Below, in pieces: positions 18,185 to 24,784 of a stretch of 64,000 bases of DNA. Both the position numbers and the translations under genes were made by a program. Source of the DNA: Thermodesulfobacteriota bacterium (GTDB lineage: Bacteria; Desulfobacterota; GWC2-55-46); the NCBI GenBank assembly GCA_030583865.1, contig CP129479.1, forward strand, positions 2,132,819 through 2,196,818, in the 5' to 3' direction. How positions within the stretch are numbered: the first letter of the stretch is position 1; each line of letters opens with the position of its first letter. The notes under the pieces were generated by a model. The model saw only the letters and a list, made by a program, of their open reading frames with translations, was not told the origin of the DNA and did not search any database.

Positions 18185-18994
18185 ATGGACAGGACACGCG
18201 CGATAGCGGCATCGCTCGCGTCGGGCCTCCTGCTCGCCGCGGCGGTGGCCCTCTCCTTCGCCACCCACGCGAGAAACGCGGTGTGGTCGGACCAGCTCGC
18301 GATGTGGAGCGACGTCGTGGAAAAGTCGCCCATGAAGGCCAGGGCGCACCTGAACTACGCGATAGTGCTCGCAAGGCAGGGGCAGCTCGACAAGGCGCTG
18401 GATGAGAACATGAAGGCGGCCGCTCTAAGCCCCGGCCTTGCAAAGGCGCACTTCAACATAGGCGCCATATACCACCTTCGCGGTTGGGCCGACGAGGCCG
18501 TCGAAAAATACCGGCTTGCCCTGTCGCTGGACCCGCAGATAGCGCAGGCCCGCAACAACCTCGGATACGCGTATTACACGCAAGGACTTCTGGACGAGGC
18601 CATGGAGGAATACAGGCTCGCCATCGAGATAAAGCCCGCCAACACGAGCTCGCATATCAATATCGGGAAGATCCACGCGGACAGGGGGGAGCTTGAAAAG
18701 GCTCTGGAAGCGTACGGGAAGGCCCTGTCTTACGAGCCTGGGAACCTCGTGGCTGGCTTGGGGGCCGGGGCCGCCCTGATTGCCATTGATAGGCACGGGG
18801 AGGCGGAGTCCGCCCTCAGGGAGACCGTAAGGCTCAACCCGGGCTCAGCCGAGGCACATTACGCCCTTGGAGACGTCCTTATGAAATCCGGGAAGACGGA
18901 TGAGGCGAGGGCCGAGTTCCAGACCGCCCTGCGGCTGGACCCTTCGCATGAGAAAGCGGGGGAATCTCTCAAAGGCGCGTACCGCGCCCGTTAG
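18185..18994 (+). CDS. TPR protein with one N-terminal membrane anchor
   Basis: This 269-residue protein has one hydrophobic segment (about 6-27) and then about six tetratricopeptide repeats (ARAHLNYAIVLARQG, AKAHFNIGAIYHLRG, AQARNNLGYAYYTQG and so on). The stretch after the anchor (VWSDQLAMWSDVVEKSP) looks like the junction between the last membrane helix and the TPR arm of much longer TMTC-like membrane proteins. This gene may therefore be a shortened derivative. It starts six bases after the barrel gene and is probably the last gene of that operon. The stop overlaps the convergent HEAT gene stop. Confidence 0.8.
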   Translation: MDRTRAIAASLASGLLLAAAVALSFATHARNAVWSDQLAMWSDVVEKSPMKARAHLNYAIVLARQGQLDKALDENMKAAALSPGLAKAHFNIGAIYHLRGWADEAVEKYRLALSLDPQIAQARNNLGYAYYTQGLLDEAMEEYRLAIEIKPANTSSHINIGKIHADRGELEKALEAYGKALSYEPGNLVAGLGAGAALIAIDRHGEAESALRETVRLNPGSAEAHYALGDVLMKSGKTDEARAEFQTALRLDPSHEKAGESLKGAYRAR

Positions 18995-19788: not shown

Positions 19789-20200
19789 TAAATCCTCGAT
19801 TGGATTTGGCCCGTATAGCTTTCGCCCGGGCTGGACTCTTGCCTGTCAGCTGATGAGAAGAACGATTCCCCGGGTCTTATACCACAAAAACGGCCTGGGG
19901 AAAACAGGTTTAATGCGTTCCCGCCAGGCGGCTGGAACTTACCGCAGATACCGGTTCAACGGACCTGGAAGCTGCAGGGCCTGTTTTTTTATCGTAAACC
20001 ATGGAATCGAATCTCTTCAGTGACCGGGCGCACTAGCGCCCTGGAGGTGTGACTTAAACCCTTGATTTGAAGTCCTTTGTACTGATAAGCTTAGGTTGCG
20101 CAGGGTCCTTTCGCGGGGCCTTGTTACAAGCTTATTCTTTCCGGGCCGGGACTGGCAAGCCATCCAGGGCCGGCCGGAGCTGACCCCTAAAGGATTGCAG
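19789..20200. other. Intergenic region between divergent HEAT and cyclase-like genes
   Basis: No gene is supported. A small hairpin GGGCGC-ACTA-GCGCCC lies at about 20026-20041 without a T run. The region must hold promoters for both flanking genes, but no strong consensus box pair is evident. Confidence 0.4.
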
Positions 20201-22912
20201 ATGAGCGGCTATAACGGCAGGAGGCTTGAGCTTCTGAACCGGCTCGCCTCAAGGAATGTTGACTTTACCGGGGGCAGGCCCTGGACGATAGACCCCCGGG
20301 AACTGCGCTTCAAGCACGGCGAGACCATAACGGAACTCAAGCTCCCGTATCACATGGGGGGCGAGGACGAGGCCTGCGTTGAAGAGGCCGTCTTGGGGCT
20401 GGCCTCCAATCTCTGCAAGCGTTACGACCCCAAGATGGAAGGCGCGGACCCGGCCCCCATGCTCCTCCTTACGGGCCAGCTCAAGCCCAAGACCTTCAGG
20501 ACCGACCTCTTCATCTCCGGCTCGCTCGAAAAAGAGACCGCTTCCCTGGCGCTCGCCGGGGTGCCGTACGTAGACAGCGCCATACTCGCCAACTGGCTGG
20601 GCTCTGAGGGCCACGGCAGGAAGTTCGTAAAATGGGTCTACGGGTACTTTGAAAAGATGCTCAAAGAGGAAGCCCGCTCCGGAGGGGAGGAAAGGACCTC
20701 CTATATCGCGCTCCTGGCCCTCATAAATACGATAAGAAAAAAGAAGGAGAAGGCAAAAGGGCTCAGGATAAAAGGCATCCCTTACGAAAAAGCCGACCTC
20801 GCCACGGGCCTCGTGATGTTTCTTACGCTCAGCGGGGCGCTAAGCTCCTTTCTTGAAAGGCTCAGGGAATCGGAGGCCTCGTATTTAAACGACGATACCC
20901 GGCTCCTCCTCGTCTCGGCCCTTGCCCCAAAGTCATTTCTCTCCATACCCGACGCCCTCGTCTCCAGCGCGATAAACCCCTACGGGATAAACAAAGATAC
21001 TTTCGCAGCGCTCTCGAAGGTTGCTGCCGGTCTCGACGAGGCCCTCTCGATCGAAGACATGGTCAAGGCCACACTTAAGGCCGCCGGCAAGGACCCTGAA
21101 GTAAGCGAGGCCGTGCGCGCCCAGTCGTACATAAACGCCTTCCGGCGCGAATCGCTCGCCTTCCTTTCCGAATTCGACCAGCCCTCGGAAGCGCAATCGG
21201 CCCTCTTTGAGACATACAACGAGGACAGGCTCATAAGGAGCTTCCTCTCGGACCAGAAGCAGATCTCCGACCTCTGGGCAGGGCTCGAGGAGACAAGGAA
21301 AAGGTATGCGCTCGACCGGCAGAGGAACGATACGGTGCTGTCCTTCCAGAAGTTTATCGAGGGTTTCAGGAAATCGAGGTTCGGAAGCCTCCTTAAGCGC
21401 CCGAAGAGGCCCGGGGAAGACGCGGCCGGGGTCATAGAAGGCTATTACGCCTGCGTCTTCGACGACCTCGTTGAAAGTTTCACCGGGCCCATGAGGAACT
21501 GCCTCGCTGACAGGCGCGGGGAGCTCAAGCCGGGCCTCCTGGTCGAGGAATACGGGAGGGGACGCCTTTACCGTTTTTCGGTGGACGACAGGGCCGTCCT
21601 CAAGGGGCTCGCCCTCGAAGAGGAAGGCCAGCTCTTCATAGACATGAAGGACTTCTCGAGGAGGACCTTGAAGGTCAGGGAAATAGCCATGGCGGACTTC
21701 ATGCGGGAGCACTTCTACAAGCCCATACTGGACGCGGCCAGCAGGTACGGGACTGGAAGCGGGGTCGCCGCCGACGAGCGCGGCATAAGGCTTGCGAACC
21801 TCCCTGGGGACGCGGCGATATTTTCCGGCGGGGTATCATACCTCGTGGCCCTGGCCAGGGACATCCAGCAGATAATACGGAAGTACAGGGAAGAGCTCCT
21901 TAAAAAGCTCCCGCCAAAAAGGGAGGAAGAGCTCCTTGATGAGGTGCACAGGAGGTTCGCCGCGAGGAAAGACGACCTCAAGCGCAAAAGGGCCGAGATA
22001 AACGCGGCGCTTGCGAGGAACGAGGCAGGGGTGGAGGAAAGGCTCGCCTCCCTCGGGGAGGAGGAGCACAGGCTGGAGGCCACCTACAGGGAAGAACTTG
22101 AGACGGCCATAAAGGGCGAGCTCGAGGCAGGACTCTACATCGCCTACGGCGCAAAGGCCGAGACCCTCATAATCGAGACCAGGCAGGGCTTTTCCGACCC
22201 CGTGAGCGTCTCCATAGGCGGCAAGATAAACGAGGCCTCCAGGGGCACATTCAGGAACCCGCTCGTAAGGGCGAAGCTCGAGCGCTCGCTCGAAAACGAG
22301 AGGGCTAAACGCGGCCACAAGGGGCTGAAGTATCCCTTCAACGCCTACATAGACAGGGTCTGCTCGGTCAAGCTCCCGCCCGAGCTCGACAACGCCTTCG
22401 AGAAGCTCGTATACTCGAGGATGGCCGCGAACTCGAAGGCAATGGCGCAGGTGCTGGCGAACGAGTTCCTGAACGACGTAAACCGCATAATCTCCGGCGA
22501 GCCGTTCTCGAACCTCAAGGTCATCTCGCCGACAGCCGACATCTACAACAAGGGCGAAGTGCTGAGCCTCAATGCGCTCGAGGCTTATATCAAGGAAGGA
22601 AAGGGCTCGAAATGGTTCTTCAAAAAGCAGGTCAGGCCGGAGGACCTGCACCAATCCATAAGGGATGAGTTCTTCTTCCCGTTCGAGCCTCTCGACTTCT
22701 GGTTCAGCCACGAGCAGGTGAAAGGGGCGGATAAGGTCGAGGCCTTCTGCAAGATAGGAGAGGTCATCTTCAAGGGCTTCGAGGAAGCGACACCCATGCC
22801 CGTCTACGAGATAGTGAACTCGGAAGGGGACTTCTTCAAGGCCCTCTTGAAGCACCATTTCAGGGAATGGCGCGATGAGGCGCGAAAGGAAAGGACGGCT
22901 GAAGTGGTTTGA
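20201..22912 (+). CDS. Large protein with divergent class III nucleotidyl cyclase-like domain split by a coiled coil
   Basis: The 903-residue protein starts at an ATG following AAAGGA. Residues 1-470 are helical and unrecognised. From about 475, a class III cyclase-like outline appears. LFIDMKDFS gives a first metal Asp (D481) and NLPGDAAIFSG a second (D537). After an ~80-residue Lys/Glu-rich coiled coil (about 555-640), GLYIAYG (from G644) and IGGKINEASRG supply the Asn-x3-Arg pair (N677, R681). The Lys that contacts adenine appears replaced by Asn, and the purine-selecting Asp position by a small residue. Catalysis and specificity are therefore uncertain. The C-terminal 200 residues are also unassigned. 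Confidence 0.55.
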   Translation: MSGYNGRRLELLNRLASRNVDFTGGRPWTIDPRELRFKHGETITELKLPYHMGGEDEACVEEAVLGLASNLCKRYDPKMEGADPAPMLLLTGQLKPKTFRTDLFISGSLEKETASLALAGVPYVDSAILANWLGSEGHGRKFVKWVYGYFEKMLKEEARSGGEERTSYIALLALINTIRKKKEKAKGLRIKGIPYEKADLATGLVMFLTLSGALSSFLERLRESEASYLNDDTRLLLVSALAPKSFLSIPDALVSSAINPYGINKDTFAALSKVAAGLDEALSIEDMVKATLKAAGKDPEVSEAVRAQSYINAFRRESLAFLSEFDQPSEAQSALFETYNEDRLIRSFLSDQKQISDLWAGLEETRKRYALDRQRNDTVLSFQKFIEGFRKSRFGSLLKRPKRPGEDAAGVIEGYYACVFDDLVESFTGPMRNCLADRRGELKPGLLVEEYGRGRLYRFSVDDRAVLKGLALEEEGQLFIDMKDFSRRTLKVREIAMADFMREHFYKPILDAASRYGTGSGVAADERGIRLANLPGDAAIFSGGVSYLVALARDIQQIIRKYREELLKKLPPKREEELLDEVHRRFAARKDDLKRKRAEINAALARNEAGVEERLASLGEEEHRLEATYREELETAIKGELEAGLYIAYGAKAETLIIETRQGFSDPVSVSIGGKINEASRGTFRNPLVRAKLERSLENERAKRGHKGLKYPFNAYIDRVCSVKLPPELDNAFEKLVYSRMAANSKAMAQVLANEFLNDVNRIISGEPFSNLKVISPTADIYNKGEVLSLNALEAYIKEGKGSKWFFKKQVRPEDLHQSIRDEFFFPFEPLDFWFSHEQVKGADKVEAFCKIGEVIFKGFEEATPMPVYEIVNSEGDFFKALLKHHFREWRDEARKERTAEVV

Positions 22913-22916
22913 CGAA

Positions 22917-23777
22917 TCACGCCTTTTTAAGCGACTCGTTCATGCTTCCGGTCCTGTAGCCCTGCAGGTCGAGCGTGATATAATCGAAACCCGCTGATTT
23001 AAGCCCGAGGACGACCTTCTTCCTCAGGGCGTCGTCGAGGAAACGCCCGAGGTCCCCTTCCTCCACCTCTATTCTCACGGTCTCGCCGTGGTAGCGCACC
23101 CTGAACTGCCTGAAACCGAGAGACCTCAAGAGCTCCTCGCCGAGGGCGACCTTTTCAATGCGCTCCACGGTTATCCTGGTCCCGTACGGGAAGCGGGACG
23201 AAAGGCAGGCCTGGCTAGGCTTGTCCCAGGTCGGGAGGCCGAGATCTTTACTCAAAAGCCTTATTTCAGCCTTTGTCAGCCCGGCTTCATGAAGAGGGCT
23301 CCTCACGCCGAGCTCGGAAGCGGCGGTCCTCCCGGGCCTGTAATCGAGGGCGTCGTCGGCGTTCGATCCGTCGGCTACGTTTTTAAAGCCCAGCGACCCG
23401 GCCCTTTCCCGGCTTATGGCGAAAAGCTCGCTCTTGCAGTAATAACACCTTTTTTCGTCGTTCTCGGCGAAGTTCGGTATCTCGAGCTCGTTTGAGTCCA
23501 CTATGACGTGCCTTGCCCCGATAAGACCGGCGAGCGAGCATGCCTCCTTAAGCTCGCTTTCGGGATAGGTGGGGGACACCGCGGTAATGGCGGCGGCCTT
23601 CTCGCCGAGCGTATCCACGGCCGCCTTCAAAAGGAAGGTCGAATCGACCCCGCCTGAGAATGCAACGAGCACGGAATCCATGCCGAGGAGTATGCCCTTG
23701 AGCTTCGCGAGCTTGAGGAGAGCCGGCTCCCTCTCAGCGCCTCCCGACGGCTCGCCGGAAGCCGGGCCGCTCAGCAT
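22917..23777 (-). CDS. larE: LarE-type ATP-dependent sacrificial sulfur transferase
   Basis: This 286-residue PP-loop protein has the SGGVDSTFLLKAA signature, PTYPESEL and the Cys-rich KRCYYCKSELF segment. LarE proteins adenylate and sulfurate the pyridinium cofactor of nickel-pincer enzymes, giving up a cysteine sulfur. LarA, LarB and LarC are absent from the window. The start overlaps the end of the upstream thiouridylase-like gene by seven bases, so both sulfur-transfer PP-loop enzymes are coupled. Confidence 0.85.
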   Translation of the reverse strand: MLSGPASGEPSGGAEREPALLKLAKLKGILLGMDSVLVAFSGGVDSTFLLKAAVDTLGEKAAAITAVSPTYPESELKEACSLAGLIGARHVIVDSNELEIPNFAENDEKRCYYCKSELFAISRERAGSLGFKNVADGSNADDALDYRPGRTAASELGVRSPLHEAGLTKAEIRLLSKDLGLPTWDKPSQACLSSRFPYGTRITVERIEKVALGEELLRSLGFRQFRVRYHGETVRIEVEEGDLGRFLDDALRKKVVLGLKSAGFDYITLDLQGYRTGSMNESLKKA

Positions 23778-24784
23778 ACCCTCGTCTCCTCGATAACCGG
23801 CTCGGGGGCCGGGCCCTCCACCTCGAATTCCATCGACCAGTCGCCGCGCGTGGCCTTGAGGCCTCTCAGCCCTCCTGCCTTGTCGAGGGCGTATTTGAGG
23901 ATAAGGCTACCCGCGAACCGGAGCGCGTCTTCCCCGCCCTCGCCGGATAGGACCGCGACCGGGCCCGGGAACCCGCCCGGCTCTATGAGGGTGTCCCCTT
24001 CCTGGAGCATGTGGCGGAGCCTCGTATTGTCGGCCTCGTTCCTTCCGATTATTACCTTTGATTTCTTGTACCTGAAGTGCCTGCCGGTTTTAAGGAGCTC
24101 CAGGTCCCTCTTGGTGACGTCCGACTTGTTCCGGAGGAGGTCCCTCACCTTCTTCGAGAAGATCTTGTCCGTAAGGAGGCAGCCTCCGGAAGGGCACGGG
24201 TAATCGTTTATATCGAGGTCCTCGGCAAGGTCTATCTGCTTACGCCTCGACCTGCCGAGGACGTCGAGGAGCCTTTCCCTGTCGACCAGCCCCTCTTTTT
24301 CGGGTATCGTGGGCTCGAGCTGCTTGGCGCTCAAGGGCCGGAGGATAAGCCCTTCGAGCCCGCTCTCCCTCTCGATCACCCTCATGGCGTCCTTCCTCTG
24401 GCTCATGGGACGCTGGCCGAGCACCTCTCCGGTTATGATGAAAGACGCCCCAATCTCGCGCATGTACTCCCCCGCGCGCCTGAACATGTAGACCCTGCAG
24501 TCGACGCAGGGGTTCATGCCCTTGCCGTAGCCGTGCCTGGGGTTGCGGACGATCTCGATATAGTCCATGCCCTTGGCGAGCACCTTGATGGGGATGCCGA
24601 ACTCCTCGGCGACCCTCCTTGCCTCGCTCTTGCAGCCGCCCCCTCCACTGCCGCCGTGGTTGCAGGTGCAGAAACCTGAAGTGAAGTTGAGCGCGTATAC
24701 CTCTATGCCCTGGTCGAGCATGAGCTTTACAGCGAGCGTCGAGTCCAGGCCGCCTGAAAGAAGCGCCACTGCCTTTATAGCCAC
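23771..24784 (-). CDS. PP-loop tRNA thiouridylase-like protein with C-terminal NFACT-R-like domain
   Basis: The 337-residue protein starts at GTG. An N-terminal ATP-pyrophosphatase domain has SGGLDSTLAVKLML and paired cysteines (FCTCNHGG and GMNPCVDCR), as in MnmA/ThiI-like sulfur transferases. The C-terminal part (about 215-320: RHFRYKKSKVIIGRNEADN) resembles the RNA-binding domain of NFACT proteins. Together this suggests tRNA or other RNA thiolation. It is shorter than true MnmA and lacks parts of that catalytic core, so the exact nucleotide is unknown. Confidence 0.75.
   Translation of the reverse strand: MAIKAVALLSGGLDSTLAVKLMLDQGIEVYALNFTSGFCTCNHGGSGGGGCKSEARRVAEEFGIPIKVLAKGMDYIEIVRNPRHGYGKGMNPCVDCRVYMFRRAGEYMREIGASFIITGEVLGQRPMSQRKDAMRVIERESGLEGLILRPLSAKQLEPTIPEKEGLVDRERLLDVLGRSRRKQIDLAEDLDINDYPCPSGGCLLTDKIFSKKVRDLLRNKSDVTKRDLELLKTGRHFRYKKSKVIIGRNEADNTRLRHMLQEGDTLIEPGGFPGPVAVLSGEGGEDALRFAGSLILKYALDKAGGLRGLKATRGDWSMEFEVEGPAPEPVIEETRVC

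Follow-up and report, generated by a model that had tools for sequence, protein, structure and literature searches.

Does the gene at positions 20201-22912 encode a class III nucleotidyl cyclase and, if so, is the enzyme active? The gene lies in a window of 64,000 nucleotides (the whole stretch of DNA analysed, whose numbering is used here) from a complete genome of 2.75 Mb, the nearest named relatives of which are Deltaproteobacteria metagenome assemblies. The open reading frame comprises 903 codons plus the stop on the forward strand, is preceded by an AAAGGA stretch resembling a ribosome-binding site and begins at ATG 20201, where the homologues also start; a longer reading from a TTG at 20096 was discarded, as the homologues start instead at this ATG. 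Comparison with a 95%-identical relative gave a dN of 0.023 against a dS of 0.22 (ratio about 0.10), thus the 903-residue protein is under purifying selection, and this result together with the full-length relatives established that the reading frame is real. Hydropathy analysis found no transmembrane segment in the protein (best 19-residue mean 1.76). Its main parts are the following:

20201-22912, forward strand: whole gene (open reading frame, full-length homologues, dN/dS of about 0.10).
20201-21595, forward strand: N-terminal domain, residues 1-465, predicted to be all-helical (AlphaFold2, pLDDT 92.5 and pTM 0.93).
21608-22825, forward strand: predicted class III cyclase-fold domain, residues 470-875, two insertions included (VIA-align, Foldseek).

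Of 97 related genomes, 57 encode a full-length homologue, as a rule in a single copy, and homologues occurred in 21 of 247 genomes sampled across the phylum. In public genomes 68 homologue loci were collected, the named ones from Deltaproteobacteria, Zymogenaceae/Zymogenus and Myxococcota. The two-part architecture is common to the homologues; the exceptions are one frameshifted copy and sequences truncated by the end of a contig. At locus L099 (5600-5650) the homologue is broken into two overlapping reading frames at the domain border; natural gene fission was dismissed here, since the conserved FSTDKRP is already present in the second frame and the break therefore appears to be a frameshift or an assembly error. 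Contig C115 of genome G040 perhaps holds the same split copy. Searches of plasmids and of viral contigs matched no homologues, and a role in mobility or defence was set aside for want of such matches.

The cyclase assignment rests primarily on structure. A full-length AlphaFold2 model built with the alignment of 58 homologues (A2), in which residue conservation was also counted, reached a mean pLDDT of 85 and a pTM of 0.60. From residue 474 onward its elements follow the order b-a-a-b-b-a-b that defines the class III catalytic fold, and further strands succeed them as in class III enzymes. The best 50 entries retrieved by VIA-align were all class III cyclases (Z 14.5-15.9, far above the 7-8 stated by the program for models that resemble nothing clearly), covering model residues 470 to 875 approximately, with 158-183 residues matched and an rmsd mostly of 2.2-3.5 A; 162 of the 164 residues of Ma1120 (5d0e_B) were superposed at 2.3 A and 178 residues of CyaB (3r5g_B) at 2.9 A. 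Class III cyclases were also the best PDB matches in Foldseek, with a best E of 5e-3, a value weakened by the 903-residue length of the query. The structural prediction that the sequence-only reading had called for thus returned the cyclase fold, and residues 470-875 very probably form a class III cyclase-fold domain, as far as a model can tell.

Sequence comparison is consistent with this assignment. The hhalign alignment against 30 class III sequences paired the expected motifs (LFIDMKDFS with LFSDIRGFT, PGDAAI with IGDAIM, IGGKINEASR with IGDTVNLASR, and GEVIFKGFEEATPMPVYEI with LDLVKVKGKERPIVMYEL), and the C-terminal KG...VYE motif resembles that of the genome's own canonical cyclase, LKGFDKPVTLYNI. 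The score was marginal (P about 0.005; the real alignment was equalled by one of 300 column shuffles), hence the fold assignment rests on structure. The Pfam cyclase profile (PF00211) matched neither the window protein nor the homologues scanned, PADLOC gave no match for the protein, and none of Pfam as a whole, NCBIfam and the single-sequence and profile searches of PDB sequences returned a cyclase or any other credible match; coiled-coil matches to apolipoprotein E and syntaxin were rejected as compositional. From this lack of Pfam, NCBIfam, PADLOC and PDB sequence matches it follows that the family is an unnamed, remote branch of class III, in agreement with the earlier suggestion of a new family.

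The catalytic residues were proposed from the letters alone, and the translation places D481, D537, G644, N677 and R681 exactly where they had been read. Their elements, and the final strands, are:

21620-21643, forward strand: strand b1, ending in D481, the putative first metal Asp (DSSP 474-481; D481 in 58 of 58 homologues).
21806-21811, forward strand: G536-D537, the b2-b3 turn with the putative second metal Asp (58 of 58).
22130-22150, forward strand: strand b4 motif GLYIAYG, residues 644-650 (G644, I647 and G650 invariant).
22229-22243, forward strand: N677-x3-R681, the putative transition-state Asn and Arg (N in 58 of 58, R in 57; IGGKINEASRG aligned by hhalign with IGDTVNLASRL).
22727-22813, forward strand: final strands b7-b8, GEVIFKG...VYEI, with K858 (DSSP 843-856 and 865-871; aligned by hhalign with the class III C-terminus; K or R in 54 of 58).

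Conservation also bore out the proposal. Both metal-binding Asp of the superfamily, as read from the alignment, and the transition-state Asn are present in every homologue and the Arg in all but one, which has Lys, so that 57 of the 58 carry the set DDNR and one carries DDNK; the metal-Asp pair, the Asn and the Arg are listed among the catalytic features of class III cyclases (Ramakrishnan et al., PMC4886424). The invariant residues are D481, G536, D537, G644, I647, G650, V670, N677, A679 and G682. Invariant columns amount to 9 of 50 in b4-a4, 6 of 103 in b1-a3 and 4 of 465 in the N-terminal part, and the constraint on b4-a4 and b1-a3 is compatible with an active site. Position 858, a Lys or Arg in most homologues, is the counterpart of the mammalian phosphate-binding Lys K1065.

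The positions that select the base are altered, as the sequence-only reading had suspected:

21797-21799, forward strand: N533, at the base-selecting Lys position of adenylyl cyclases (N in 52 and S in 6 of 58 homologues).
22208-22210, forward strand: V670, at the second base-selecting position, Asp or Thr in adenylyl and Cys in guanylyl cyclases (V in 58 of 58).

N533 stands three residues upstream of the GD motif and V670 seven upstream of the catalytic Asn. In 30 canonical cyclases of related genomes the equivalent of position 533 is always Lys and that of position 670 mostly Thr or Ala. Guanylyl cyclases select their base with a Glu and Cys pair. With Asn or Ser at 533 and Val at 670, the 58 homologues have neither this pair nor the Lys and Asp (or Thr) pair of adenylyl cyclases and, judged by the base-pocket residues tested, the protein is neither an adenylyl nor a guanylyl cyclase.

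The anatomy of the domain required revision. It had been described as interrupted once by a coiled coil and followed by a separate C-terminus of 200 residues. The coiled coil is present, with predicted helices at 545-569, 575-605 and 611-637 and 48% charged residues, and it does interrupt the domain; the single interruption and the separate C-terminus did not hold. Most of this C-terminus belongs to the domain, whose last strands it contains, and consequently the domain reaches approximately residue 875 instead of 700 and includes two insertions:

21905-22120, forward strand: first insertion, a charged coiled-coil hairpin at residues 569-640 approximately, between a3 and b4 (helices 575-605 and 611-637).
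22316-22726, forward strand: second insertion, residues 706-842 approximately, with approximate borders and possibly including the b6 equivalent (homologue lengths, secondary structure).
22538-22567, forward strand: family-specific motif D-I-Y-N-x-G-[EQ]-A-x-S, residues 780-789 (N783 and G785 in 58 of 58 homologues, Y782 in 56, A787 in 57).

The first insertion spans 21 to 182 residues across homologues, a freedom in length that places it outside the catalytic core. The second has 82-146 residues (approximately 135 in most homologues) and is conserved, with the invariant N-x-G; the window protein carries Val at position 787 of the motif. Outside the cyclase domain, residues 1-466 modelled alone (pLDDT 92.5, pTM 0.93) consist almost entirely of helices, for which no clear match was found among solved structures (no Foldseek E of 0.001 or lower, no Z of 8 or higher) or among viral structures. 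From the architecture, a regulatory or sensor function is proposed for this N-terminal domain.

Comparison with described systems places the family apart from each of them. With the class III adenylyl/guanylyl cyclase domain (PF00211; CyaB 3r5g, CyaC 1wc3, sGC beta 8hbf, Ma1120 4wp9/5d0e) it shares the fold, the order of elements, the two metal Asp, the Asn-x3-Arg pair, the KG...VYE strands and the basic residue conserved in 54 of 58 homologues, but it differs in an identity of only 15-17%, the missing PF00211 match, the replacement of Lys/Asp(Thr) or Glu/Cys by Asn(Ser)/Val, two large insertions and the new helical N-terminal domain. DUF2652 (PF10851) proteins, which average about 250 residues and are nearly all single-domain, were proposed to be class III cyclase-like and have K-E or E-K base pairs and a replaced catalytic Asn (Ramakrishnan et al., 2016, PMC4886424). 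The present family is likewise an uncharacterized remote branch of the superfamily with conserved metal Asp, however, it keeps the catalytic Asn, and only one of the 29 members scanned matched the DUF2652 profile, at a sub-threshold E of 0.013. The Pycsar cyclase PycC combines a class III-like fold and retained metal Asp with non-canonical base-recognition residues (PMC11224242). The window protein resembles it in these three respects but is encoded by a widespread single-copy chromosomal gene, with neither a match to a defence-family profile in PADLOC nor a conserved effector gene adjacent to it. The GGDEF signature is absent, the sequence reading LPGDAAIF. By the tests made, the family is none of PF00211, DUF2652, GGDEF or PycC.

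The genes around the homologues are housekeeping-like and differ between lineages, and no conserved operon partner or effector neighbour was found among the homologue loci; since the neighbours vary, the context reveals no functional partner. By sequence reading they include LarE, MnmA-like, PurQ, MTA-phosphorylase-like, radical SAM and CAP/SCP-domain proteins. In the window, a LarE-like ATP-pyrophosphatase gene and an MnmA/ThiI-like thiouridylase-type gene, again by sequence reading, overlap by a few bases at 22917-24784 on the reverse strand, and about 26 of the 68 loci show the two in this order beside the cyclase-like gene. One clade (L087, L092, L094, L096, L103 and L104) has a purQ-like gene directly upstream on the same strand, at gaps of mostly 15-69 bases (299 in L094), and other clades have an MTA-phosphorylase-like or CAP/SCP-domain gene upstream. 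A TPR-repeat protein is encoded at 18185-18994 on the forward strand; in several relatives tandem large membrane-plus-TPR proteins of this cluster lie beside the cyclase-like gene. Elsewhere in the genome, the sole cyclase detectable by PF00211 (G000:C1:435534-436073, L170) has Lys and Thr at the base-selecting positions and, by sequence reading, a HAMP-like membrane architecture, and represents a useful in-genome control. Three proteins with cNMP-binding domains, potential readers of the signal, are also encoded; on the grounds of these proteins and the canonical cyclase, cyclic-nucleotide signalling probably exists in this organism.

The explanation that best accommodates these data, and which we regard as probable, is a soluble cyclase that depends on metal ions, recognizes its base in an altered way and is controlled by its helical domain. 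In this two-part signalling enzyme the C-terminal half, residues 470-875, would be the remote class III nucleotidyl cyclase domain. By analogy with class III enzymes, the protein would form a head-to-tail dimer. One subunit would bind two metal ions on the nucleoside triphosphate through D481 and D537; N677, R681 and K858 from its partner would orient the triphosphate and assist the release of pyrophosphate, so that a 3',5'-cyclic nucleotide would be formed. The base would be recognized differently, through Asn or Ser at 533 and Val670, so that substrate choice might be relaxed or might favour GTP or a pyrimidine nucleotide. Dimerization and control, with the passing on of an intracellular signal, would fall to the coiled coil extending from helix a3 and to the N-terminal helical domain.

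That residues 470-875 are catalytically active is likewise favoured, with some reserve, because all four catalytic positions (D481, D537, N677 and R681) are conserved. Counting against the explanation as a whole are the missing Pfam match and marginal profile similarity, the absence of the Lys/Asp or Glu/Cys residues, the lack of a conserved operon partner, and a pLDDT of only 66-69 around residues 481-500 along with the pTM of 0.60. The main rival is a pseudo-cyclase in which the fold and the metal site are kept for regulatory nucleotide binding or dimer architecture without cyclic nucleotide synthesis. The loss of the base-pocket Lys in all 58 homologues, the constant Val at the other base position, the second conserved insertion with its invariant N-x-G, absent from canonical enzymes, and the presence of a canonical cyclase in the same genome would suit it; pseudoenzymes, however, usually lose catalytic residues, and this family retains both metal Asp and the Asn without exception, and the Arg in all but one homologue, across deep lineages. 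We consider it rather unlikely, but weightier than the remaining alternatives.

Related palm-like folds, those of GGDEF proteins, yield other products, and the DIYNxG[EQ]A motif could mark a second substrate or acceptor site, which would suit a nucleotidyl-transfer enzyme that shares the fold and the metal dependence and whose product is not a 3',5'-cyclic mononucleotide. This is improbable, given that the closest structural matches are all mononucleotide cyclases, that the family retains their typical Asn-x3-Arg pair and that no GGDEF motif occurs. A chance resemblance of motifs in an unrelated coiled-coil protein would agree with the failure of every database profile to find the domain and with the marginal hhalign similarity, but it is already contradicted by a predicted structure that fits essentially complete cyclase domains with Z near 16 and by the cyclase motifs being the conserved part of the family; it can scarcely be credited.

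Returning to the preferred reading of an active cyclase, that its product is not simply cAMP is put forward tentatively. Equally speculative is a broader proposal, namely a deep and normally single-copy class III branch that is active, has a new Asn/Val pocket, makes a product other than cAMP and serves core signalling under a new helical control domain; in several deltaproteobacterial lineages such a branch may produce cGMP, a cNMP with a pyrimidine base, or several products together.

cAMP and cGMP are made mainly by class III cyclases, yet the branch described here is invisible to Pfam and NCBIfam. It keeps the metal-binding and transition-state residues complete and has a base pocket that differs from those of adenylyl and guanylyl cyclases, and its cyclase-fold domain is in every case linked to a helical domain that has no clear counterpart among known folds. 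If inactive, it would be a pseudo-cyclase family whose catalytic residues are kept for another reason. If active, it would provide a natural test of base choice by class III enzymes and would add a signalling pathway to poorly known bacteria of sediment and groundwater.
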